A stretch of DNA of 64,000 nt from assembly GCA_963682025.1 (NCBI GenBank), contig OY821521.1, positions 172,025,665 to 172,089,664 of the forward strand, in the 5' to 3' direction. Both the position numbers and the translations under genes were made by a program. The notes under the pieces were generated by a model. That model made no database searches and was not told the DNA's origin. It saw nothing but the letters and a program-made list of their open reading frames with translations. This stretch comes from Cordilura impudica. Taxonomy: Eukaryota; Arthropoda; Insecta; Diptera; Scathophagidae. This document shows positions 1,345 to 59,110 of the stretch, piece after piece (position 1 is the stretch's first letter; each line of letters begins with the position of its first letter).

Positions 1345-1462
1345 GTAATTTTGTGAAGGTTCTTGGTGCAAACCTCACGGCCGCCCTAAGTAAAAAATTT
1401 CATATAAAAACAATCTATTCAACAATCATATTATAACACAACGATTATCACAATGTTCAATA

Positions 1463-1503
1463 AATCGCTGATGAAGGCTGAAGTGCCAGAAACCGGTCCG
1501 ATT
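1463..1503 (+). ncRNA. Candidate hammerhead ribozyme in Repeat A copy 1
   Basis: All core parts of a type I hammerhead are visible in order. Stem I 5' strand AATCG (1463-1467), CTGATGA core (1468-1474), stem II GGC/GCC with loop TGAAGT, GAAA (1489-1492), a loopless CCGG stem III (1493-1496), cleavage triplet GTC (1496-1498), then stem I 3' strand CGATT (1499-1503), which pairs perfectly with the first strand. A loopless palindromic stem III is known from small hammerheads in Penelope-like elements, which can fold as dimers. An oddity is A opposite A at the base of stem II, where G-C is usual. Activity is not shown by sequence alone. Confidence 0.55.
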
Positions 1504-1613
1504 AAGAATACAGTGTAGTTATGAATTTTTGAAATATATGCTTTCTTTTCTTCTTTACCACGCACCATTGAAACAAAATTAATATTTGCATATTAATTAC
1601 AGTATTAATTATA

Positions 1614-1953
1614 ACTAGCGGATCCCAGCCCTCGAAATTCGAGCGCAAATTCTACGAAATTTTATTTTTTCACTAAATAAAGACCCTAAAAGTATGCTAA
1701 TCAATTATAGCCAATTCACAAATTAACACAAAAAACTCATTTTATTACAAACACAATAACAAATTTAATAAACACACACATAGCAAAAATGCAATTTACT
1801 CAAAATAAAGGAAAAAATTTAAAAATCTGTAAATCTGCAAAACGGCTAGAAAGAAATACCTTTCAAATAATATACGCTTGGTCAAAATCGGGATGAAACG
1901 GTAGAACAAAACATCAGTCACAAGAAATCGCCTAGCCTATTAATATTATACAT
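1614..1953 (+). mobile_element. Repeat B copy a (helentron-like, non-autonomous)
   Basis: It starts ACTAGCGGATCCCAGCC followed by the palindrome CTCGAAATTCGAG, and ends GCCTAGCCTATTAATATTATA. It is one of about fourteen full or partial copies in the window, about 380 bp when complete. A start of ACTAG plus hairpin, fixed ends, no coding capacity and no visible target duplication fit Helitron/helentron-derived short elements; that family name is inferred. It has an internal deletion of about 40 bp and is inserted in Repeat A copy 1. Confidence 0.75.
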
Positions 1954-1984
1954 ATGTCTGAAAAATTACTACAAATCTAACATA

Positions 1985-6901: not shown

Positions 6902-8674
6902 TTAATCTGAACCACTGAATAATGGTCTGCATCGTTTTGGAATGGGTTCGACGTCAGTATCATTTTCATCACTAGAATTTATCTCGTGACTAGGGGATGA
7001 GATCAAAGAATTTTTAGGGGCTTCAGTTGTTTCTTTTCTTGAAAAATAATTTGTCATTAGGCTTTGCGATTTTGAATTTATAAGTTCCTTGTGCAATTCT
7101 TGATATCCGGAAAACAAATCAGTCAGCCCGCGTTGAATCTTTAGTGCTCTTTCCGTGTCTGGATCCATAGTAAGAACTTGGTTTTGTAAGGCATTAACTG
7201 TGCTGAGGATATAACCAATTTTTTTTGAAGTGAAATGTTCAACAATTTCTTCGGAATCACTGTCTTCACTATCCACGTTTTGCTCATTTCTTATAACTGA
7301 GCTAACAACTTCGATATCGGTTAATGGCTCTTCTGCTAAAAGCTCTTCCAAATCGTCCTGGTTTAGCGAGTCAAATCCATCTCCTCCCATTTGATGAGCT
7401 AGATCTATTATTTCATTTGTCAGTGTCGATATTTCCTCGCCAGTACTTCTTACAACACAATCTGGCCATGTAGTTTTCCAGCATGCATTTAATGTTTGAG
7501 GACGCAGTTTAGATATCGCTGATTCTATCAGGATAATACAGTCCAAAATTGTAAATTTTTTCCAAACTTCATTTAACGTAAGTGATTCAGTTTCAATTTT
7601 ATTTAAAATGAATTGGTAAGTGCCTTTTATGTAGTATTTTTTAAAAGTTGAAATTATTCCTTGATCTAAAGGCTGAATAATGCTAGTTGTGTTGGGTGGA
7701 AAAAATTCGACTTTAATGTTTGGATGCTCCAAATGAGGATGGCCAGGTGCGTTGTCAACAATCAGCAAAACTTTAAACTCAAGTCCTTTTTTCTTCATAT
7801 AAGATTCAACTTCTGGTACAAAGCATTTATGAAACCATTCAGTAAACAGTGCAGTTGTCACCCATGCTTTAGAGTTTGCCATCCAATGAACTGGCAAACG
7901 AGTCAAATCCTTACCTTTAAGAGCGCGTGGTCTTAAAAATTTATTTACTACTAGCGGCTTTAACATTTTATTTCCCGAAGCATTACTGCATAGTAAAATC
8001 GTTAATCTTTCCTTGCAAGCTTTAAATCCACTGGCTTGTTTTTCTGATTTTGCAATGTAAGTTCGGCTTGGCATCTTTTTCCAAAACAGACCAGTTTCAT
8101 CAGCATTAAATACCTGATCTGGATAATATCCTCCATCTTCAATAATTTTTTTAAATTTTTCTGGGTATGCTGCGCTAGCGCTCTCATCTGCTGAAGCTGC
8201 CTCACCTCGGATTTGAATGTTATGGAAGTTATTTCTTTTAATAAATCCCGTCATCCATCCTTTACTTGCTGCAAAATCCTTTGGTCTAGAAGTGGACGGT
8301 TCAGAATCTTTGATTGTCTCATAAAATTTTAAAGCCTTTTCAGTGATCATGTACCCGCTAACAGGAATTTTCTTTTTTGTTAAATCTTCAATCCATATAA
8401 CGACAGCCTTCTCCACTTTTTCGATTAATGTGTCTCTTGAGTAAGAAGAATATTTAGTGCTTAGTTTTGTGCCTGAAATTACGGTTTTTCTTATTGAAAT
8501 CTCATTTTTTTTAATAGCTCGAATTGTTGATTCCCCTAGTTTATATTCCTTTCCAAGTGCAGTATAATTTGCTCCTTTTGAAATGCGGTCTAAAATTTCA
8601 ATTTTTGTTTCCAGGGATATCGTTTGTCTCGTTCTTTTTGTTTTTTCCATTGTTATATCCCAAGTGATAAACAA
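6902..8674 (-). CDS. Tigger/pogo-family transposase (CENP-B-type HTH plus DDE)
   Basis: The 590-codon frame encodes a transposase that would bind the element ends and cut and paste the DNA in the nucleus. Residues 10-65 form a CENP-B/Psq-like helix-turn-helix (SLETKIEILDRISKGANYTA, GESTIRAIKKN). A second, tigger-type DNA-binding region spans about 75-160 (KGWMTGFIKRNNF). The DDE endonuclease core has Asp192 in FNADETGLFW, Asp307 in LIVDNAPGHP and Asp337 in IIQPLDQGII. The 307-337 spacing of 30 suits pogo/Tigger. The C-terminus is acidic (NVDSEDSDSEE, about 460-470) with a basic KRCRP motif near the end. Met9 (codon at 8648-8650, MEKTKRTRQ) matches where relatives usually start, so it is the likelier initiator. 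No stop or frameshift is seen, which is unique in this window. Confidence 0.93.
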   Translation of the reverse strand: MFITWDITMEKTKRTRQTISLETKIEILDRISKGANYTALGKEYKLGESTIRAIKKNEISIRKTVISGTKLSTKYSSYSRDTLIEKVEKAVVIWIEDLTKKKIPVSGYMITEKALKFYETIKDSEPSTSRPKDFAASKGWMTGFIKRNNFHNIQIRGEAASADESASAAYPEKFKKIIEDGGYYPDQVFNADETGLFWKKMPSRTYIAKSEKQASGFKACKERLTILLCSNASGNKMLKPLVVNKFLRPRALKGKDLTRLPVHWMANSKAWVTTALFTEWFHKCFVPEVESYMKKKGLEFKVLLIVDNAPGHPHLEHPNIKVEFFPPNTTSIIQPLDQGIISTFKKYYIKGTYQFILNKIETESLTLNEVWKKFTILDCIILIESAISKLRPQTLNACWKTTWPDCVVRSTGEEISTLTNEIIDLAHQMGGDGFDSLNQDDLEELLAEEPLTDIEVVSSVIRNEQNVDSEDSDSEEIVEHFTSKKIGYILSTVNALQNQVLTMDPDTERALKIQRGLTDLFSGYQELHKELINSKSQSLMTNYFSRKETTEAPKNSLISSPSHEINSSDENDTDVEPIPKRCRPLFSGSD

Positions 8675-9614
8675 GCACCTAGGAAATAGAGGACGTTAAA
8701 AATTGATTTCTATTTGAATGTTACGCAATCGAATCACTCACTCACTGCACCGTACTTTACTAAATGAACCACAATACGCGTCTGTATCAGCTAGAAAAAA
8801 CACTGCAGTTGCTCTTTCAGTAATAACACACACAAAAAACACCAGCTAATAAGAAGGGAAATCCCCAGTTTGTTCTTTCAATAATAACACACACAACACT
8901 CATACATACACAAAGAAAAAAAAATAAAACAAACTGTAACGTCTATAAAAGTGATGCAAACTTGTCTTAATTTAAACACGACAAAAAGCCTAAAAACATC
9001 ATAAACATAACTGCGAAACCTGTTAAAATTCTAAAAAAAATCGTTCATTTAAAAATCGCATAAATTCGAATCCGCATAAAAAAAATCCGCATAAAAGGAG
9101 ACCTGAGTGTATATGTATACATGTACATATATAGAATATATGTATATTATTTTATTATTTAATATATGTATGTACATATATGTAAATATTACACACAAAA
9201 AATACAACATCAAAAGTTATTGTTGTCTTTCTTTATATAAATTAATACATAAAATTTTTTTTTGGTATATTTACATTGTTTTTTTTTTATTGACAACTAG
9301 GTAGTTTAGCATTATTTGTAGGTGAATTTTTACTCCCTTTATATTAACTCGTTGTGTCCGCTTGACAACAAAATTTTGGATCGATTTTTAGCCCCTTTCC
9401 CGTCACCCAATCGATCTGAAACTTTGCAGGCAGGCTCGTGGTGATGAAAAAAATTATCTAACAAATTTTTTTAGTGATGCCAAAACAATGGAAACTTTAA
9501 AATTTTTCTACCAGAGTTGATAAAAAAAATGTACGAAGGGTTAGGTTTTATTATATTATTTCCACAAAGACCACAAAAACAACAAGTCCAGCTATGATAA
9601 CAATACAACATTTA

Positions 9615-24682: not shown

Positions 24683-25200
24683 ATTAATTAAATAGTTCGA
24701 ATGTTTTTAAAATAAAACAAACTATTTTGGCGCATTTATATATACTTATATTAATTGCATTTCCTGTAAAAACTTCTCTTTCTCTAGGCTGTATTGATAT
24801 ATTACCATTTCTTTAAAATATTTTCCAAAAAAGTAATAACATATTCACAAAATTCCCGTCGTTTGGGTTTCGTTTATTAAATTAAAAAGTAAAAAAAATT
24901 AATATACAAAAATATGCAACACAAGTAAAAATTAGCTTAATTGAAAATAATTTATTTTATTTTCAATTAATTATATGGTTTTTATAGAAAATATAAAAAA
25001 AAATAATGAAAAAAATTAAAGAAACAAAAAAAAAAATATTATATACAAAAAATAATGATTTTTATAAAGATTTAAAAGAAATATGTTTTTAATATATAAA
25101 AATATAAAAATAGCAAAAAAAAAAAAAAGTTTTGAAAAATAAAAATAAATATCAAATACAATGAAAAAAATATAGCTTAATTAGCTTACTTCCAAATAAA
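24683..25200 (+). repeat. Inverted-repeat right arm, Repeat E
   Basis: It begins ATTAATTAAATAGTTCGAATG and contains AATTCCCGTCGTTTGGGTTT, the uninterrupted version of the site where Transib inserted in the left arm. The same block recurs in direct orientation at 31195-32100. Very AT-rich and non-coding. Confidence 0.75.
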
Positions 25201-25204
25201 TTAT

Positions 25205-25500
25205 TTTTCAATGGTGGGTGGTAGAGAAGAAGAAAGCATATAACTATTTCAAAAATTCTTAACTACACTGTGTTCTTAATCGGACAAGTTTCTGGCATTT
25301 CATTGTTTATATATGAAATTTTTCTACTTAGTGCGGCCGTGAGGTTTGAACCCTGAACCTTCAAATACACTCTTACTTGCAGTTTTTGGTCAGAGCTTTA
25401 ACACACTCACCTAAAGTCAGGCCTACGAGCAGTGTGGTTAGAGTCAGTTTTCATACCTACAGCTTTTACTTCGTATTAATTTCAGAAGATACCACTCTGT
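25205..25500 (-). mobile_element. Repeat A copy 2
   Basis: On the plus strand, TGGTGGGTGGTAGAGAAG, GTTTCTGGCATTTCA, GTGCGGCCGTGAGGTTTGAA and CACACTCACCTAAAGTCAGG give the family in reverse, with box B-like and box A-like motifs. The hammerhead is destroyed: GGACAAGTTTC replaces GGACCGGTTTC and the CTGATGA side is deleted. It extends to about CAGAAGATACCACTCTG. Confidence 0.72.
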
Positions 25501-25689
25501 CCAAACAAACAATCGTTATTTTTGAATTTTTTAATATTTTTGCATTTATACTTCTCATTTCCACTATTCTCAGTTTCGTAAGAGTTGCCATATGTGATGT
25601 ACGATTTGTATATACTACATATTGCACTTTTTACATATATTTGAGATGAGCTTTGAAGTGAAAATTTTTGTATGTTAGATTTGACGTCA

Positions 25690-26090
25690 TTTTTCAGACA
25701 TATTGCAATTAATACTGTAATTAATATGCAAATTTTAATTTTGTTTCAATAGTGCGTCGCAAAGAAGAAGAAGAAAGCATATATTTCAAAAATTCATAAC
25801 TACACTGTATTCTTAATCGGACCGGTTTCTGGCATTTCAGCGTTTTTTCATCAGCGATTTATTGAACATTGCGATAATTGTTATGTTATAATTGAATAGA
25901 TTGTTTCTATATGAAATTTTTCTACTTAGTGGGGCCGTGAGGTTTGAACCCTGAACCTTCACATACACTCTTACTTGCTTTTTTGGTCAGAGCTTTAACA
26001 CACTCACCTAAAGTCAGGCCTAAGAGCAGTGTGGTTAGAATCAGTTTTCAATTATTTTCAATTTATTTTATGACCTTTATTGAAAATATA
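25690..26090 (-). mobile_element. Repeat A copy 3
   Basis: The unit runs from CATTTTTCAGACATATTGC (its 3' tail in element orientation) to AGCAGTGTGGTTAGAATCAG. It holds the hammerhead motif at 25815-25859 and box B/box A-like motifs at about 25935-25950 and 26000-26015. It sits just upstream of a Repeat B copy, an arrangement repeated at 32100-32870. Confidence 0.75.
25815..25859 (-). ncRNA. Hammerhead-like motif in Repeat A copy 3 (expanded stem II)
   Basis: Reading the minus strand: AATCG, CTGATGA, then a stem II region enlarged by about four bases (AAAAAACGC...GCCA), GAAA, CCGG, TC and CGATT. Stem I and the core are intact but stem II pairing is reduced. Probably inactive. Confidence 0.4.
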
Positions 26091-26144
26091 AAAAATATTG
26101 TTAAAATCAAATTAAAAATTTTAAAACAGTAACATTAAAATATA

Positions 26145-26389
26145 ACTAGCAGATTCCAGCCCTCGAAATTCGAGTGCAAATTCTAGGATATTTTATTTTT
26201 TCATTAAATAAAGACCCTAAAGGTATGCTAATCAATTATAGCCAATTCGCAAATCAACACAAAAAACAAATCCATTTTTATTACAAACACATTAACAAAT
26301 TTAATAAACACATACATAGCATTGTTTAATTTTATGTACGTGTTAGCAGCAACTTTAAATGCAATTTACTCAAAATAAAGGAAAAAATT
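26145..26389 (+). mobile_element. Repeat B copy e, 3'-truncated
   Basis: It starts ACTAGCAGATTCCAGCC with CTCGAAATTCGAG and follows the family to CTCAAAATAAAGGAAAAAATT. The last 130 bp are absent; the tail of the antisense I-type LINE begins there. The missing end is not found on the other side of that LINE. Confidence 0.78.
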
Positions 26390-29300
26390 AATTTATTTAT
26401 TTATTTATTTTTATTTATTAAAAGTAAAGTAAATTTACAAATTAATAGTAGAGGGTTTAGGAACTGGCTACAGAGGCCTTCGTCCTTACTTAAAATATTT
26501 ACATTTTAAATTTATTTACATTTTAGAGTTAAAAATTAAAGGTTTTATATATTTTTTAATAATTTGATGGGTAGGTGTTGTTTAATGGAACTAAAATCTA
26601 AGGTTTTAACTGATTCCAGCAGGTTTTTTGAAAGGGCTACGTTGTTGTAGCAAGTGAGTAGATGTGGCATTGTTAGTAAGCTGTTGCATTTTGGGCATAA
26701 AGGCGGATTTTCCTTCTTTAGGTGGTATTGGTGGGTTAGCTTGCTGTGTCCTAATCGTAAACGAGTTAAGATTTTTTGTTGATATTTAGGTGTTTTCGGT
26801 GAGTATATAATTTTTTTATATGTTGGGTTAATATTTTTATAATAAATATTGGGAGATCGGGTTATTGATTCCTGGTTTTTTTCGTGTATTTGCTTTTTTA
26901 TATATCTTTTTATGTCTTTTTTTGGTGTAGTTATTGTAAGTAATTGTTGGAGATAATACTGTTTCTTTGGCATATTTATCAGCAATTTCATTTCCTTGGA
27001 TGCCTATGTGGCCTGGAGTATATAACAATTTGATGTTGTTTTGTCGTAAAAGTAGTTCTCGAATATTGGAAATTAATGGATCAGCGTTGTTTATATTTTT
27101 TATCGCTTTTATTGACGATAGACTGTCGGAACATATAATCAGTTTTTCTCTAGGTGGTTTTGATTTTATGGCTTCTTCTATAGCAGTGATTTCAGATGTA
27201 AAAATAGATGTGTAGTGTGGAACTAACCCTTTTTTATTAGGGATCCGTTACCCGTTGCTATAGCAAATCCATTACCTGATTCTGACTTTGATCCATCACA
27301 GTACCAGAAAATCCATTTTTTTTGTGTCCATTCGTTGTAAATTTGAAGATGATGTTGTTTTAATATATCTGCGCTGCTATGATTTTTTGGAGGCATCTCT
27401 GATTCTATAAAAAATTCAGAAATGTCTGCCCATGTGGGGTGAGTAGCTCGGAAAGATGTTGGTGTGTTTAAGTCGATTGCAAAATCTGTGGCAGAGTCTT
27501 GAATTGATGCGACCGTTGTTTTGATTTTCGGTTTTCTTTTAAGTTTGTTGTAAGCTTTTGTATCTTTAAAGATGATATTAGATCTATTTTGAGACGATTT
27601 AATAATTTGATTACAAAGGAGCTTTGTATATCTATCTTCGATTGTGGGTAAGTCGAATTCATGAAGAATATTTTTAATTGGTGTAGTGTAGAAAGCTTGT
27701 GTGATTGTACGAAGCGCAGAGGGATAATATTTTTTAACAGGTAAAAGGTTTGATTTAGCTGTTTTACCGTATATTATTAGGCCATAGTCAATTTTACTAA
27801 GGATAACAGATTTTAGGATGTGTACAAGTGTGGTAATATGGCTTTGGCTTGAGGATCCGTTTATAAACTTTAAGACATTTAAACGCTTGGATAGGTCTGA
27901 ACAGAGTTGTTTTATATGGTCGTTCCAATTAAATCTTTTATTAAATATAAGTCCAAGAATTTTGAGTGCGGAGACGTTTTCGAAGTAATCATTGTTAATT
28001 TTAAAAGTTGGTGAAGTGCAATTGTGTTTGCGACACACATGTAGGTGTTTGGATTTTGCTTTGGATATAGATGCCCCTGAAACTGAACACCAATTATTTA
28101 AATCGGTTATCAAATTATCAAGTTTATTTATGCATTTCCATTGTGTCGGTCACTTTTGAAAATATATAGAAATCGTCGGCGTATATACAATAAGAAAAGT
28201 TATTGTGTTTGGACATTATGTGATTGATTTTCTCAAAAGCTATAAGGAACAATACCACTGACAGGGGAGATCCTTGTGGGATACCATTCTCGACTTTTGT
28301 AACTGTTGATTTGAAGCCATTGTTCTTAACAGTAAAAGTTCTGTTTGTGAGAAAGGACTTTACGTACCGATACATTTTTTCACCAATATTCACTCCTTAA
28401 GCTGATTTAATACCGAATGGATACCAACTTTGTCAAAAGCCTTTTCGAAATCTATACTATGTATAGAACAGTGGTTTCGAGTGGATAACCATTTTGCTAG
28501 GTTATACTCTAGGTGTATTAAGGTGTCTGTTGTACTGCTATTTGGTTTAAATGCTGTTTGTTTTATGTCGATAAGTTTGTTTTGGAAAATAAACCAGGAC
28601 AACCTTTTTGCAACCATTTTTTCTAGGGTTTTACTTACGCATGAAATTAAAGATATCGGGCGGTACGAGTCAAGTTCGTCTTTATTTTTATTTGGCTTTG
28701 GAATGCAAATGACATCTGTTTTTTTTCCAAATATGTGGTATAATTCCATTTAGAAAAATGTTATTAAATAATTTTAATAAACGAGATTTAAAGTTATCTG
28801 ATGAATTTTTGATCATTGAGTAAAATATTTTATCGGTGCCTGGGCTATTGTCTTTGGTATTTTTTGTAATAAGATCAAACTCGAATGTTGTAAATTCTTT
28901 TTCCAATTCCCTTGCTGATTTGCATAGTTTTTTAGGTTTATATTCGGAATTAATTAAAAGATTTTCGCAGTTTAAATATTGTGTTTGAAAGTTGGAGTTT
29001 GCTGATGTGGTGGAGAATTTTTTTGCAAGTAGGTTAATTAATTCATTTGTTTCGGTTGTGATTGACCCATCGGATTTTTTCATTGCACGAATGTTCCGTA
29101 TATTAGAGGGTTTATCAGAGAAAGCTCTGACCGTTTGCCATATCTGCTGATGTTGTGGGCGATATATTTGAAGTAAAATCCATGTATGCTTGGGATTTGG
29201 CTTCTTTTATTTTTTTTCCTAAATATAGCATTGAGTTTTCTAAATTGAATAATATTGGGTAAGAGTGGCTTTGATTTAATTTCTTTCCAGAGTGACATCT

Positions 29301-31194: not shown

Positions 31195-32100
31195 TTAATT
31201 AAATAGTTCGAATGTTTTTAAAATAAAACAAATTATTTTGGCGCATTTGTATATAATTATATAAATTGCATTTCCTGTAAAAACTTCTCTTTCTCTTGGC
31301 TGTATTGATATTTCACCAATTCTTTAAAATATTTTCCAAAAAAGTAATAACACGTCATTCACAAAATTCCCGTCGTTTGGGTTTCGTTTATTAAATTAAA
31401 AAGTAAAAAAAAATAATATACGGAAATATGCAACACAATTAAAAATTAGCTTAATTGAAAATAATTTATTTTATTTTCAATTAATTATATTTTTTTTATT
31501 GAAAATATAAAATATTATATACAAAAAAAAAATGATTTTTGTAAGGGACTAAGGGAAGCGCTTGGTAAAAGTGGGAAAATGCATGCTAAATTATGGGAAA
31601 ATGCCTGTTAAGTCCATAGGAAATGCATGCCAAATGATAAAAATGCATGTCAAAAACGGTAAAATGTTTGGTAAATTTGGGCAAATTTATGGGAAAATGC
31701 ATGCTAAAAATGGGAATTTTTCTGTTAAAAATGAGAAAAATTTGCATGCTGAATGTAGGGAAATAGCATGCTAAATGTAAGGAAATTACATGCTGAATTA
31801 AGAAAAATGATTTTCAAAGCTGCAAATAAGAGAAAACTTTCGAAAAAACAAAAACATGCACAAGACATGCTTTTTACCATTTAGCATGCTTTTCCTGTAG
31901 ACATAACAGGCATTTTCCCATTTCTGTACAGCAAAACCAATTCTCTCTTTTTATAAAGATATTAAAAGAAATATGTTTTAATATATAAAAATATAAAAAA
32001 ACAGCAAAAAAAAGTTTTGAAAAATAAAAATAAAAATAAATATCAAATACAATGAAAAAAAATATAGCTTAATTAGCTTAATTACAAATAAATTATTTTT
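31195..32100 (+). repeat. Repeat E copy 3, with internal insertion
   Basis: It matches 24683-25200 in direct orientation from ATTAATTAAATAGTTCGAATG onward, including CCCGTCGTTTGGGTTT. It is interrupted at about 31543-31945 by a tandem/inverted repeat block. Repeat A copy 4 and Repeat B copy f follow, as in the 24.7-26.4 kb block. Confidence 0.75.
31543..31945. repeat. GGGAAAATGCATGCTAAA minisatellite insert
   Basis: Variants of GGGAAAATGCATGCTAAA recur about ten times in direct orientation (31565-31795). At 31868-31925 the reversed words TTTAGCATGCTTTTCC and ACAGGCATTTTCCCAT appear, so the block can fold back. The insert is absent from Repeat E at 25060. No open frame deserves annotation. 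Confidence 0.65.
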
Positions 32101-32490
32101 CAATGGTGGGTGGTAGAGAAGAAGAAGGCATATATTTCAAAATTCATTACTACAATGTATTCTTAATCGGACCGGTTTCTGGCATTTCAGCCTTCATCAG
32201 CGATTTATTGAACATTGTGATAATTGTTATCTTATAATTGAATAGATTGTTTCTATATGAAATTTTTCTACTTAGTGAGGCCGTGAGGTTTGAAACCTGA
32301 ACCTTCACATACATTCGTAATTGCACTTTTTGGTCAGAGCTTTAATACACTTACCTAAAGTCAGGCCTAAGAGCAGTGTGGTTAGAATCAGTTTTCAATT
32401 ATTTTCAATTTATTTTATGACCTTTATTGAAAATATAAAAAATATTGTTAAAATCAAATTAAAAATTTTAAAACAGTAACATTAAAATAT
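32100..32490 (-). mobile_element. Repeat A copy 4
   Basis: Reverse orientation, from ATGGTGGGTGGTAGAGAAG to GCAGTGTGGTTAGAATCAG, followed by the same flank as copy 3 (TTATGACCTTTATTGAAAAT). It contains the best-preserved antisense hammerhead (32165-32205) and box A/B-like motifs. Confidence 0.78.
32165..32205 (-). ncRNA. Candidate hammerhead ribozyme in Repeat A copy 4
   Basis: Minus strand: stem I AATCG/CGATT (5 bp), CTGATGA, stem II GGC/GCC around loop TGAAAT, GAAA, CCGG and TC. It is identical to copy 1 except for one loop base, so both stems and every core base are conserved between the two copies. Confidence 0.55.
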
Positions 32491-32491
32491 A

Positions 32492-32872
32492 ACTAGCAGA
32501 TTCCATCCCTCGAAATTCGAGTGCAAATGCTAGGAAATTTTATTTTTTCATTAAATAAATACCCTAAAGGTATGCTAATCAATTATAGCCAATTCATAAA
32601 TCAACACAAAAAATCAAACTCATTTTTATTACAAACACATTAGCAAATTTAATAAGCACATGCATAGCATTGTTTAATTTAATGTATGTGTTAGTAGCAA
32701 CTTCAAATGCAATTTACTCCATATAAAGGAAAAATTAAAAAAATCTGTAAATCTGCAAAACGGCTAAAAAGAAATACCTTTCAAATAATATACGTTTGGT
32801 CAAAATCGGGATAAAACGGTAGAACAAAATATCGGTCACAAGAAATCGCCTGGCCTGTTAATATTATAGATA
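32492..32872 (+). mobile_element. Repeat B copy f (full length)
   Basis: It starts ACTAGCAGATTCCATCCC and ends GGCCTGTTAATATTATAGAT, 381 bp. Preceded by the same 100 bp as copy e, so both belong to one duplicated block. Confidence 0.82.
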
Positions 32873-32976
32873 TGAAGAAACTAATGTTCTTAGAAAAAAA
32901 TTAAAAAATATATATTTTAAAATTTATAAAAAAAAATTTGAAAAAAAATTTTTTTTGGAAAAAAAAAATATATTAA

Positions 32977-43109: not shown

Positions 43110-44771
43110 TTTTTAATACGTCATTTTAATTTCTTTAGTTAATTTAATTTTAATTTCTATATAAGTTTTACCTGCTGTGCAGGATATTTTTACACTTTAT
43201 TTTTACATTTTTGTTTTATTTTTTATATATTTTATATTATATTCTATTTTATATTATTCTTCTAATTTTAATTATAAATTAAACTTACATACATTCTTCT
43301 TATTAAAAATTAATTTGATATGACTAATGTTGTTTTATAAGATTTTAAATCTTGTTACATTAGGATTTTCATTAATAAAAATTAATAATAAATTATAAAA
43401 AAAAAAAAAAATAGTCTCAGGTTCTGTAAATATTTATATAGAAAAATAGTCGTAGATTCTAAGAGTTTTCTTATAGATAAATAGTCGCAGATTATGAGAA
43501 TTTTTCTACAGAAAAACAGTCTAAGATTTTGCTAAATGGTCACAGATTCTGAGAATGTTTCTATAGAAAATTTGTTTCCGATTCTGTAAATTTTTTGACA
43601 GAAAAAGAATCTCGAATTCAAAGAATTTATGTATTGAAAAATAACCTCAGATTTTGTGAATATTTCTATAGAGAAATAGTCCATATAAAAATTTAATATA
43701 AAAATTCCATATTAAAATTTTTCAATAGGAAAAAAATTTCTTTAGAAAAAAAGTCTCAGATTCAGAAAATTTTTCAACAGAAGATTGGTCTCAGATTCCA
43801 AAAATTTTTCTATAGAAAAAGAGTCTCAAATTCCGAGAATTTATGTATAGAAAAATAGTCTCAGATTCCGAGAATTTTTCAATAGAAAAATAGTCTCAGA
43901 TTCTGAGAATATTTCTGTAGAAAAATAGCTCATATAAAAATAGTCCCAGAGTCTGAAATTTTTTATATAGAAAAACAGTCTAAGATTCTGAGAATTTTTC
44001 TGTACAAAACTCTCTCAAATTCTGGGAATTTTAATTTTTCTACACAAAAACTGTCTCATACATATTCTGAAAATTGTTCTATAGATAAACAGACTCAGGT
44101 CATATATTAGAACAGTTTCAGATTCTGATATATGTGTATATATCTATAGAAATTTATTCTCCGAATCTGAGATTTTTTCTATACAAATAATCTTTGATTC
44201 TGAGAATTTTTCTGCAGAAAATTAATCGCTGATAATGAGTATTTTTACCTCAGAAAAACATGCCCGGAATCTAAGAATGTTTCAATAGAAAAACAATTTC
44301 AGATACTAAAGTTTTACTATAGAAAAGCCGTTTTAGATTCTAAGAATTTTTAATTTTCCTATAGAAAAACTGTTTCGGATTCTGTTATATATTCTATAAA
44401 AAATCGTTTTAGATTAGGAGAATTTTTCTTCAGAAAAATGGTTTCTCGTTCTGAAAAATTTTCTATAGAAAAACAGTCTCAAATTCTGAAAATTTTTGCA
44501 TAGAAAAACTATTTTTCAGTAGAAAAATAGTAGTAGTTTCTGAGAATTTTTTTTTAGAAAAATAGCCTCAGATCCGGCGAAATTTTCTATAGAAATATTA
44601 GTCTCAGATTCTATAGAAAAAGAGTCTCAAATGCTGAGAAATTTTCTGTAGAGAAACTGTTCCACACTCTGAGAATTTCCATAGAAAATTAGTCAGATTC
44701 TGAGAATTTTGCTATAGAAAAACTGTCTCAGATTATAAAATTTTTTCTATGAAACAAGGTCTTATATTTTT

Positions 44772-45123
44772 TTTAATGGTGCTTGGTAAAGAAGAAGAAG
44801 AAGAAAGCATATATTTTAAAAATTCATAACTACACTGAAATTCTTAATCGGACCGGTTTCTGGCATTTCAGTCTTCATCAGCGATTTATTGAATATTGTG
44901 ATAATTGTTATGTTATAATTGAATGGATTGTTTCTATATGAAATTTTTCTACTTAGTGCGGCCGTGAGGTTTGAACCCTGAACCTTCACATACACTCGTA
45001 CTTGCACTTTTTGGTCAGCGCTTTAACACACTCACCTATAGTCAGACCTACGATCAGTGTGGTTAGAATCAGTTTTCGTACCATACAGCTTTACTTCGTA
45101 TTAATTTCAGAAGATACAACTCT
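44772..45123 (-). mobile_element. Repeat A copy 5 (most complete)
   Basis: In element orientation (minus strand) it runs from a 5' end near GAAGTAAAGCTGTATGG through a box A-like TAGGTGAGTGTG (45027-45038) and a box B-like GGTTCAAACCT (44967-44977), about 60 bases apart, then TTTCATATAGAAACAATCC, the hammerhead motif and GAAGAAGAAG at the 3' side. Box spacing suits a tRNA-like pol III promoter (TRGCNNAGYNGG and GGTTCRANNCC). It is inserted in the satellite. Confidence 0.75.
44846..44886 (-). ncRNA. Candidate hammerhead ribozyme in Repeat A copy 5
   Basis: Minus strand: AATCG, CTGATGA, stem II GAC against GCC (one mismatch compared with copies 1 and 4), GAAA, CCGG, TC, CGATT. The core and stem I are intact, but stem II is weakened by a G-to-A change. 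Confidence 0.45.
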
Positions 45124-45600
45124 GATATATTATCCATAGATTAGCAAACTCAGATTCTGCTAAATTTTCTATATATAAACTGCTTCGAATCTTAAAATTT
45201 TGATATAGAAAAATAATCTCTGATTCTGTGAATTGTTCGGAATTATTCGATAAAAAAGAGTCTCAGATTTTGATAATTTTTCTATATAAAAATAGTGTCA
45301 TATTCTAAAAAATTTTCTATAGATTCTGAGAATTCTGAGAATTTCTCTTTATTTAAATATTATGTGATGCTGGGAGTTTTTCTATACTGTGTAGCAGGGC
45401 CTGAAAATTTTTCTATAGAAAAATAGTTTCAGATTCTGACAATGTTTCTATAGAAATATTCTGAAAAATTCGGAAACTATTTTTCTACAGAAAAATATTG
45501 AAACATTTCTAAATTAACAGTTTTCTATAGAAAAATAGACTCAGATTCTGAAAATGTGTTCGATAAAAAAGAGTCTGAGATTCTGAAAACGGAAGTCTTA

Positions 45601-46001
45601 TGCCGTTTTCTTTTCTGACAAAAAATGTCGCCCTTTTTTTGCCCTTTTTTGGAAAAGTGTATTTTTTATATATTCGGAATCAAGAGCAACCTTATATTAT
45701 ATATCAATCGAAAGGTCTCAAAGTGCTGTGTTCATAACTGCAAAAAATTTTGATTACTATCCTCTTGGAAGTCATAGGGTGAAAATATTCAAAAATGGGG
45801 AACAATGGGGAAATATTCTCACACTATGACCTGAAAGAAGACAATGGCTGGAATTTTTTGTGATTTACGAGGGCCCGACTTTGAGACCTTTCGATTGATT
45901 TATAAGATAAGGTTGCTCTTAATTCAGAATACATAAAAAATATACTTTTCGAAACCAGGGCAAAAAAAGGGCGACATTTTTTGTCAGAAAAGAAAACGGC
46001 A
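45601..46001. mobile_element. Foldback MITE with TGCCGTTTTCTTTTCTG ends
   Basis: The 401-bp unit has inverted ends of roughly 130 bp or more: TGCCGTTTTCTTTTCTGAC at the left and its complement ending GAAAACGGCA at the right, with AAGAGCAACCTTA and TAAGGTTGCTCTT inside. TTA flanks both sides (45598-45600, 46002-46004), and the satellite monomer supplies the empty site GTCTTAGATTCTG. A second copy lies at 57623-58364. No coding capacity. The TTA duplication suggests a PIF/Harbinger relative, though the long arms are unusual for it. Confidence 0.85.
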
Positions 46002-46082
46002 TTAGATTCTGTCAATTTGTCTGTACAAAAATGTCTCAAAATCTGAGAATTTTTCTATAGAAAGAAAAAGTAATTCTGAGTC

Positions 46083-46165
46083 GATCGGTATAGTTAAAGG
46101 TGGGTCTGGTTCAAATAATTTTAGTAGTTAGAAACATTAGCAAAAACTTATAATACCCTGAAAAA
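46083..46165 (-). mobile_element. Repeat C short fragment
   Basis: TTCTGAGTCGATCGGTATAG, GGTGGGTCTGGTTCAAATAA and TTAGTAGTTAGAAAC match the outer 80 bp of Repeat C. A similar scrap (TACCCTGACCACATAGTGAT) is at about 48410-48430. Confidence 0.6.
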
Positions 46166-46513
46166 TGGTCTCGCATTCTGATAATTTTTCTGTAGAAAAA
46201 CAGTCTTAGTAGAAAAATAGTCATAGTTTCTGAGAATTTTCCAACAGAAATATAGTCTCAGTTTCTGAGAATTTGCTTTAGAAAAATAACCTAAGATTCG
46301 GTGAATTTTTTTTAAGAAAATGAGTCTGAGATCCTGAAAAATTTTCTATAGAAAAATTAATCTCAGATTCCATAGAGAAATTTTCTATAGAAAAAAGTAT
46401 TTCTATAGAAAAATAGTCAGATTCGGAGAATTTTTCTACAGAAAAATAGTCTCCAATTTTGAAAAATTTTCTATAGAAAAACAGACTCAGATTTTGGGAG
46501 TTTTTCAATAGAA

Positions 46514-47613
46514 AACAAGTAAGGTCTATACCGACTATACGATAGCCTATACCATGCGTTTAAAGACCCTATCTCTTTGGTCCAACTATTTAGATATAGA
46601 AAATCTATAATATTATTAGGCTAGGCGATTTCTTGTGACCGATGTTTTGTTCTACCGTTTTATCCCGATTTTGACCAAACCTATATTATTTGAAAGGTAA
46701 TATCTTTTTAGTCGTTCTGCAGATTTACAGATTTTTAAATTTTTTCCTTTATTTTGAGTAAATTGCATTTAAAGTTGCTACTAACGCATACATAAAATTA
46801 AACAATGCTATGCATGTGTTTATTAAATTTTTTAATGTGTTTGTAATAAAAATTAGTTTGTTCTTTGAGTTGATTTGCGAATTAGCTATAATTGATTAGC
46901 ATACCTTTAGGGTCTTTATTTAATAAAAAAAATAAAATTTCCTAGAATTTGCACTCGAATTTCGAGGGCTGGAATCTGTTAGTAAACATAAACCAAGTTT
47001 GAGTGGTAAGTTTTTTTTGCCCTCGGATATGAAAAAGTTCATATCGGCTGCTATATTTATATGTGGACGAGGTCGAAAAATGGATCGATCCTGCCCATAT
47101 TTATTAAAGTCACTTATTTTTTTGCAAAAACATATACAAATCAAATTTGAGAAAAATCTGTGCAATATTTTTGTTTTTTGATAGATTTAAGTAAAGATGG
47201 GGAATTAGCTTCATACGGGGGCTATGAGTAAGAATTGTCCTATAGGGCTTATTTTTAGACTACTGATAAATGGATGTTATAAACATATACAAACGCAATT
47301 TGACCAAGATCTATATGATAATTTTGATATTATGGCAATTTAAGTCGTTCTGATAGGGGTTATTTGTATGGGAACTAGATTTGATCATGAACCAATTTTC
47401 ACCAATTTCAATAGCATTCGTATTATGGCCGATAGAAGCTTACATACCAAAGTTCATACTACACAGGCGGACATCGCTAAATCGACTCAGAAAGTGATTC
47501 TGAGTCGATCGGTATAATAAAAGATGGGTCTAGGTAAAATATTTTTCCTAGTTACAAACATCAGCCCAAAGTCATTATTCCCTGACCACATAGAGGTAGT
47601 CGTATAGGGTATA
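46514..47613 (-). mobile_element. Repeat C copy 6, carrying a Repeat B copy
   Basis: It starts CAAGTAAGGTCTATACCGAC and ends GTCGTATAGGGTATA. The satellite reads CAATAGAAAA on the left and AATAGTGTCAG on the right, so it resumes in phase after the insertion. Repeat B copy g splits it after TTTAGATATAGAAAA (46602) and Repeat C resumes as CATAAACCAAGTTTGAGTGG. Without that insert it is about 720 bp. Confidence 0.8.
46603..46983 (-). mobile_element. Repeat B copy g (full length, inverted)
   Basis: Plus strand TCTATAATATTATTAGGCTAGG to GAGGGCTGGAATCTGTTAGT, 381 bp. Other Repeat C copies read GATATAGAAAATAAGCAT across the site, so the insertion left no obvious duplication, as expected of helitron-type transposition. 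Confidence 0.83.
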
Positions 47614-48400
47614 AATAGTGTCAGATTTCGAAATTTTTTCTGTAGGAAAATAGTCTCAAATTCTGAGACTATTTTTTTTTAGAAAAACTATCAGATTCTC
47701 AGAATTTTTTTTTATAAAAACCAGTCTCAGATTTTGAGAAATTTTGTATAGAATAACAGTCTCAGATTATAAAAATGTTCCTATATACATATATTCCGTA
47801 GATAAGCAATCTCAGATTTTGATATATTTTATCCTGAAAAACTGTCTCATATTCTTAGAAGTTTCTATATAAATACTGCCTCGATTCTTAACATTTTGAT
47901 ATAGAAAAATAATATCTGATTTTGTGAATTTTTCGATAGAAAAGAGTTTCATCTTCTGAAAATTTTCTTTAGAAAAACAGAGCCAGATTCTACAAATTTT
48001 TTTGTATTAAAATATTCTCCAATGCTGGACGTTTTTGTGTACTGTGTATCAGGGTTTGAAAATTTTTTTATAGAAAAACAGTCTCAGATTTTGGTTTAGA
48101 AAAACAGTCTCAAAATTTTTCTATAGAAAAATAGTTTCAGATTTTGAAAGTTTCTCTATAGAAATATTCTGAAAAATTTTGAAACTATTCTTCTTAGAAA
48201 AATTCTGAAATAATTTTTCACTTAAAAAGTTTTCTATAGAAAAACAGTGTCAGATTCTGAAAATGTTTTCGATAGGAAAAGAGTCTTAGATTCTGAGAAA
48301 TTTCTATAAAAAGAAACTCTTAGATTCTGTGAATTTGTGTATAGAAAAAAGTCTCAGATTATCAGGACTCTTCTATAGAACGACAAAGTTATTCTGAGTA

Positions 48401-58465: not shown

Positions 58466-59110
58466 ACTAGCAGAGCCCAGCCTCGAAATTTGAGGGCAAA
58501 TTCTAGGCAAATTTATTTTTTCATTCAATTATAAATATTTGTTAAACCCACAGAAGCACAGAAGATATATAACTGGGTTTGCTAATAAATAATTTCTTAA
58601 GAGCCTAAAGGCCCCGGTAGGTGAGTAGGTAGCGTGCTCGCCTACCATGCGGGGGTCGTGGGTTCGATTCCCACCAGAGGCTTTGGTCTGTCGCTGCAAA
58701 AAAAAATAAATAAAATTAACACACTACTCCCTCTTTCCTCCTTCCTATATCTATATCTTTCCTGAGATCAACACAATGCACTGCATCTGTTGGGGGCATC
58801 CCCTGAGTGTTGATTAATCAAAAAAAAAAAAAAAAAAAAGGTATGCTAATCAATTATAACCAATTCACAACACAACACAAATTTCATAAATACACACGAA
58901 ACATTGTATACTTCTATGTATGTATGCGTTAGTAGCAACTTTAAATGAACTTTACTCCAAAAAAATGTTCCAGATGATGCAAATCTGTAAATATGGTGGA
59001 GGGCTAGGAAGAAATACCTTTCAAATGGTATATTTTTTGTCATTATCGGTGGACAAATAAAACCGTTAAATCGGTCACAAGAAATCGCCTTGCCTATTAA
59101 TATTATAGAT
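58466..59110 (+). mobile_element. Repeat B subfamily 2, copy m, carrying a SINE
   Basis: Start ACTAGCAGAGCCCAGCC, end GCCTTGCCTATTAATATTATAGAT. The internal sequence (CAAAAAAATGTTCCAGATGATGC, TTATCGGTGGACAAATAAAA) differs from the main family and matches 63771-63970. Without the SINE at 58610-58839 it is about 415 bp. Confidence 0.8.
58610..58839 (+). mobile_element. tRNA-Gly-derived SINE
   Basis: The first 72 bases (58610-58681) fold like a tRNA: box A-like TAGGTGAGTAGG, an anticodon arm TGCTCGCCTACCATGCGGG, and box B GGTTCGATTCC inside a GTGGG/CCCAC T-stem. The anticodon arm differs from insect tRNA-Gly(GCC) TGCTCGCCTGCCACGCGGG by two bases, giving loop CTACCAT (ACC). A tRNA-unrelated body (CACTACTCCCTCTTTCC, GGGGGCATCCCCTGAG) and a poly(A) tail of about 20 follow. 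The element interrupts Repeat B's CCTAAAGGTATGC, which appears on both sides. Confidence 0.85.

Follow-up and report, generated by a model that had tools for sequence, protein, structure and literature searches.

Results

A repeat family with a hammerhead-like motif

The window analysed here is a stretch of 64,000 nucleotides from the fly Cordilura impudica, in which all five places noted earlier belong to one repeat family with a hammerhead-like motif. The original prediction counted five copies of this repeat; their places and strands hold, but blastn reduces them to four insertions, copies 2 and 3 being parts of one partial tandem. The features are as follows.

1352..1610, plus strand: copy 1, 5'-truncated, unit 463 to 112 (blastn of the 604-bp unit, 87.5% over 265 columns)
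1463..1503, plus strand: motif of copy 1, stems I, II and III intact (sequence and descriptor match)
1611..1951, no strand assigned: interruption of copy 1 by 341 bp of another repeat (seen in the unit blastn)
1952..1982, plus strand: 3' remainder of copy 1, unit 116 to 146, stopping at the second (tail) end site (93.5% over 31 nt)
25199..26049, minus strand: copies 3 and 2, a single partial tandem insertion of the 604-bp unit (blastn)
25815..25859, minus strand: motif of copy 3, stem II weakened by a 4-nt insertion (sequence)
32091..32396, minus strand: copy 4, unit 375 to 80 (blastn)
32165..32205, minus strand: motif of copy 4, equal in grade to that of copy 1 (sequence and descriptor match)
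44767..45124, minus strand: copy 5, unit 328 to 77 (blastn, 91% over 362 columns)
44846..44886, minus strand: motif of copy 5, with an A.C mismatch in stem II (sequence)
44968..44977, minus strand: box B-like sequence of copy 5, GGTTCAAACC (sequence)
45027..45038, minus strand: box A-like sequence of copy 5, TAGGTGAGTGTG (sequence)

The blastn alignment of the tandem insertion at 25199..26049 runs along the minus strand from unit 375 to 604 and on from 1 to 527, and after a deletion closes with 585 to 604 and 1 to 80. With the same 604-bp query, the 3' ends of the window insertions fall at unit 80, 80, 77 and 146. A target duplication suspected by eye around copy 2 (TTTGTTTGGA/TTTATTTGGA) was rejected: because copies 2 and 3 are one tandem, both sequences belong to the unit.

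The repeat that interrupts copy 1 has similar stretches at 26138-26391, 32485-32874 and 46603-46983; by eye, it and these stretches end in a terminal hairpin and CTAG and look Helitron-like. Copy 5 lies inside a long degenerate tandem satellite (43400-48400) with units like attctgagaattttctatagaaaaac. A 597-aa open frame at 6902-8695 on the minus strand has DDE_1, Tc5-type HTH and CENP-B N-terminal domains, and is presumably a pogo/Tigger-like transposase.

The full motif that had been described for copies 1 and 4 is present in both (AATCG / CTGATGA / AGGCTGAARTGCCA / GAAA CCGG TC / CGATT), in type-I order: stem I has 5 bp, stem II has 3 bp past an A.A opposition, and stem III is the palindromic ACCGGT and has no loop. 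The defects ascribed to the other copies were likewise found: copy 5 reads GAC in place of GGC in stem II, the insertion in copy 3 leaves about two stem II pairs, and in copy 2 the motif has lost its 5' half. A descriptor composed after the motif had been seen (stem I of at least 5 bp, stem II of at least 3 bp with A.A allowed, stem III of at least 3 bp) gave two matches in the window versus two in 1,500 dinucleotide-shuffled windows, and two looser settings gave 0.030 and 0.017 matches per shuffled window. Among 106 core matches in viral contigs, used as background (33 and 73 loci, some of them near-duplicates), none had a stem I of at least 5 bp and none combined a stem I of at least 4 bp with a stem II of at least 3 bp. 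No relative was found with two patterns (one longer, exact) in viral contigs or with one in prokaryote genomes. Coincidence is a poor explanation of the window motif, and the proposed repeat family with a minimal type-I hammerhead-like motif and a loopless stem III is supported.

Abundance in the genome

The assembly from which the window comes (1.486 Gb, 855 contigs) was searched with the exact core CTGATGA...GAAACCGGTC, which has at least 5,750 matches (2,883 and 2,867) versus one for a reversed-pattern control. The 100 core matches listed all lie within the first 27.4 Mb of contig C1, and several of them are spaced about 604 bp apart. We mapped 52 spans in loci L107-L156 and kept 46 for end counts, omitting one span that duplicates L107 almost exactly, two short fragments (74 and 79 nt), a copy with 79% identity and two internal fragments; a list of lengths covers 44 spans, two short ones being left aside. 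Because these samples require an intact core, they give no free measure of core conservation, of crossing of the predicted cut site or of 5' ends near the motif. Similarly, 11 of the 20 regions in one sample were picked for visible tandem or inverted pairs, so the frequency of such pairs is no estimate.

Tandem units and their ends

The unit, measured from one predicted cut site to the next at locus L137, is 604 bp long with a GC content of 32.6%. Long copies consist of such units head-to-tail with seamless junctions; 12 of 44 spans cover at least 604 columns, the longest reaching 1,828. Two joined units contain no stop-to-stop frame above 64 aa and hence no RT/GIY-YIG frame, so the element is non-autonomous at most. 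Among open frames of 130 aa or more at 20 loci, judged by eye from the first 60 residues, no protein of Penelope-like elements (PLEs) was recognised.

Two 3' end sites, a tail signature, account for 42 of 46 spans. In 26 the 3' end lies at unit 69-89, past the predicted cut site, with the sequence ACCACGCACCATT..., and in 16 at unit 145-160 with the sequence CTAACAAAACAAAA...; the remaining four end at 9, 30, 41 and 101. The 5' ends are not distinguishable from uniform (KS p=0.89) within a range restricted by the motif-based sampling. Three of 46 begin no more than 10 nt from the cut site, where 1.5 would be expected, and there is a mild excess at unit 385-430 (7 versus 3.5 expected, p=0.06). 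At L142, both members of a pair begin nearly at the cut site: the short arm spans unit 4 to 80, and the other has its 5' end at unit 3. Two diverged copies, at L138 and L118, share a 5' start at unit 239 with differing flanks; they may belong to a subfamily that is older and has a fixed 5' start.

Of 36 loci, partly picked for pairs, 10 carry inverted pairs; every pair is head-to-head, and eight of the ten abut or overlap within 20 bp. When tandem units of one locus are compared, identity is 97.4-100% in 24 of 25 cases (93.8% in the exception), while identity between loci has a median of 94.6% over 1,156 pairs. Since units within an insertion are near-identical while loci differ, multi-unit copies should come from one template or a homogeneous multimer. 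Such copies also require a template with a joined cut site, either a circle or an uncut multimer. Homogeneous arrays could alternatively arise from unprocessed multimers or by recombination. The cut-site argument fails for single-unit copies, since they were located by a motif whose end is the cut site. Any copy of a cut linear monomer would begin at unit 1, lack the motif and be invisible to this sampling; as the sampling itself imposes the crossing of the cut site on single-unit copies and limits where their 5' ends can lie, neither argues for an uncut template.

The tandem and inverted arrangement could also be that of a tandem satellite or foldback DNA element whose units are spread by recombination and whose motif is coincidental, and by eye, regular target duplications were not seen in the mapped loci, most insertion ends having no clear one. 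The loci are dispersed and their flanks differ; together with variable 5' truncation, two fixed 3' end sites and a motif that is rarely matched by chance, this makes such an origin highly improbable. A DNA transposon of the TIR/foldback type was abandoned on the distribution of the ends. The original prediction had hinted at PLEs, and the end sites, tandem units and head-to-head pairs bear this out.

Pol III-like boxes

The proposed box A-like and box B-like sequences about 60 bp apart are present, at unit 415 and 475 with a spacing of 60 nt; box B matches the consensus GGTTCAAAACC exactly and box A approximately. These boxes had suggested a tRNA-derived Pol III SINE carrying a hammerhead, like Sm-alpha of schistosomes. 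ARAGORN, which called no tRNA in copies 2-5 at its default threshold, placed a tRNA-Gly(acc) over the boxes of copy 2 at 80% and made weak sense calls over the box A-B stretch of copies 3-5 at 60%, where antisense calls carry the same weight. Given the sense calls at lowered thresholds, the stretch may be a decayed tRNA-like sequence, or even a Pol III promoter, and the mild excess of 5' ends at unit 385-430 would suit a SINE as well. In copies 4 and 5, Rfam matched no tRNA at E<=10. Moreover, no tRNA-like head stands at the 5' end of full copies: the boxes are internal, many copies running far 5' of box A and some through one to three units. Runs of T4/T5 at unit 511-514 and 28-32 precede both sites at which reverse transcription would start, and a third, at 157-160, lies at the second site, so the RNA that is reverse-transcribed is unlike a Pol III product. 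Together with the PLE-like ends and inverted pairs, these features make a SINE of the Sm-alpha kind very unlikely, and we dropped this part of the prediction on the end sites and the length of the copies. Elsewhere in the window, at 58610-58683 on the plus strand, a tRNA-Gly(acc)-like sequence (ARAGORN; Rfam 29.9 bits) is followed by A-rich stretches and resembles a tRNA-derived SINE more than a tRNA gene.

Evidence for and against hammerhead function

In minimum free energy (MFE) predictions, dimers of copies 1 and 4 fold into a double hammerhead, and in the monomer CUG is paired with CGG. Such a misfolded monomer and double-hammerhead dimer are what would be expected of motifs that act as dimers only. 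The predicted circular unit is more stable than 60 shuffles of it (z=-3.1), and the dimer energies are not below those of shuffles (z -0.12, -0.34, 0.24 and 0.35); the same holds for the monomers. In four window copies, conservation of the motif does not significantly exceed that of the remainder of the repeat (Fisher p=0.21).

Compensatory changes in stems I and II had been proposed as a check. At the first pair of stem I, the genome holds 55 copies with A-T, 36 with A.C and 52 with G.T; with G-C copies counted in the thousands, an inexact figure, fewer than one A-T copy would be expected under independence. In 71 sampled copies the same pair is G-C in 64, G.T in two, A-T in five and A.C in none, a coupling with Fisher p=1.6e-6 when relatedness is ignored. 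Stem II is wild-type in 13 of the 55 A-T copies versus 24 of the 36 A.C copies. Both this deficit and the main alignments of four of the 13 with intact stem II, 84-89% identical to the unit, make the A-T copies look old. Both sites of the double change are CpG, and as the A-T copies may share one lineage, the coupling perhaps reflects a single event in it. Stem II has no covariation, with 27 of 55 A-T copies pairable against a shuffled mean of 28.7; the 71 sampled copies include one A-T double change but two T.T. Coupling is present at the first pair of stem I, possibly as one lineage event, and absent from stem II.

The base of hammerhead stem II is normally a G10.1-C11.1 pair, which is highly conserved though not universal. 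The repeat has A.A at 10.1/11.1 in window copies 1, 3, 4 and 5, in 66 of 71 sampled copies and in 42 of 55 A-T copies, and the caution first voiced over this opposition is justified. It does not exclude activity, because the axolotl hammerhead HHR_Amex2, with U.U at the base of stem II, cleaves according to passages of PMC7229834, with 22% cleavage in 1 h as a monomer and more as a dimer. A search with the Rfam hammerhead models, another proposed check, gave no match at gathering in the window or in 14 loci, and none at E<=10 in copies 1, 4 and 5, although a loopless stem III may lie beyond those models.

These observations leave considerable room, if somewhat short of an even chance, for a PLE-derived element whose hammerhead is inactive or vestigial and whose template is unprocessed tandem transcripts. 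The prevalence of A.A, the missing Rfam match and the uncoupled stem II all suit such an element, and for PAc, passages of PMC11167929 report that ribozyme mutants left in vitro insertion unaffected and that no reads start or end at the cut site. Conversely, the exact core and ACCGGT persist together at the at least 5,750 matching places, though that count selects for both, stem I pairing is kept in a diverged lineage, and the axolotl hammerhead cleaves despite its own mismatch. The odds that the motif cleaves today are about even.

Discussion

Comparison with Penelope-like elements

According to the parts of PMC11167929 that treat their insertion, PLEs are arranged in tandem, and their reverse transcription begins at two adjacent internal sites, leaving a tail signature unique to them; the start most often lies 111-118 bp into the ORF, in a stem loop rich in AC, and targets are AT-rich. 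Passages of PMC3846280 add adjacent inverted pLTRs, head-to-head being commonest, partial tandems with an optional tail, and target site duplications of 8-10 bp or none. Like D. virilis Penelope, the A. vaga Pen families and PAc of Anolis, the repeat has tandem pLTR-like units, an adjacent head-to-head inverted copy, two 3' end sites, 5' truncation, an AC-rich start of reverse transcription, AT-rich flanks and a minimal hammerhead. PLE hammerheads are characterised by stems I and II only, as far as the relevant passages of PMC3846280 and PMC11167929 go. The repeat differs from PLEs in that its unit has no RT/GIY-YIG frame, in that its end sites lie about 75 nt apart rather than forming a tail of the published 30-40 bp, and in the A.A at the base of stem II.

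The layouts around the cut site are also alike. The ATG within CUGAUGA opens a 17-codon frame (MKAEMPETGPIKNTVQL) and lies 28 nt before the cut, while the PLE cut site is placed 26 bp into the ORF, in PAc too, in the corresponding passage of PMC11167929. This frame may be a relic of a PLE ORF. The same source states that the PAc hammerhead required protein for cleavage.

Comparison with retrozymes and other hammerhead elements

Metazoan non-LTR retrozymes, as far as published passages describe them, share with the repeat a non-coding, low-GC (32.6% in the repeat), tandem organisation with a type-I hammerhead, arrays of up to about three units in the loci examined here, and a putative circle predicted to be self-paired. 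The passages differ from our element in giving a unit of 150-450 bp instead of 604 bp, and a canonical hammerhead with loop-loop contacts instead of a minimal loopless one. Retrozyme-like repeats exist in insects, as noted in a passage of PMC7229834. HHR_Amex2, in the same source's account, resembles the repeat in a mismatched base of stem II and higher activity as a dimer, and differs in having U.U rather than A.A and a 2-bp stem III with a tetraloop.

The schistosome element Sm-alpha is a Pol III element. It has a hammerhead and box A- and B-like sequences in common with the repeat, but the ends and templates of the repeat are not of the Pol III SINE type, and its stem III is loopless. Among the literature matches listed, there was no account of such an element in flies; this comparison covers papers rather than repeat libraries such as Repbase, and we do not claim that the family is undescribed.

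A proposed mechanism

Taken together, the repeat is probably a non-autonomous, retrozyme-like derivative of a PLE, with a minimal type-I hammerhead predicted to act as a dimer. We propose that reverse transcription would act on RNA of several units, which could be a transcript reading through a tandem copy or a circle joined at the site of hammerhead cleavage. It would begin at AT-rich breaks from one of the two AC-rich sites, which lie roughly 75 and 150 nt beyond the cut site. The cDNA would extend 5' over a variable length, sometimes more than one turn around the unit, and where both sides of a break were primed, the products would be joined head-to-head. Made up of the core, a stem I of 5 bp, a stem II of 3 bp and ACCGGU as stem III, the minimal hammerhead would be active only as a dimer across tandem units; in that form it might trim multimers to 604-nt monomers, open to closure by a host ligase. 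The putative steps are cleavage, circularisation and the action in trans of a PLE reverse transcriptase. That the small non-coding RNA is both cut and circularised by a hammerhead active only as a dimer, with its non-canonical A.A in stem II, and then serves as the template for rolling-circle, target-primed reverse transcription, making the element a PLE-mobilised retrozyme, is a tentative and rather unlikely extension; if true, a single element would connect PLEs with non-LTR retrozymes.

Passages of PMC7761336 call the role of minimal hammerheads in PLEs unknown and propose PLEs as movers of retrozymes. The repeat combines ends and tails of the PLE type with tandem non-coding units of the retrozyme type, has thousands of copies and is simple in its cut-site geometry; this makes both points testable, and it allows one to ask whether dimers cleave despite A.A at 10.1/11.1 and whether circles are the source of multi-unit insertions. 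The repeat is therefore a good test case for why such elements retain ribozymes.
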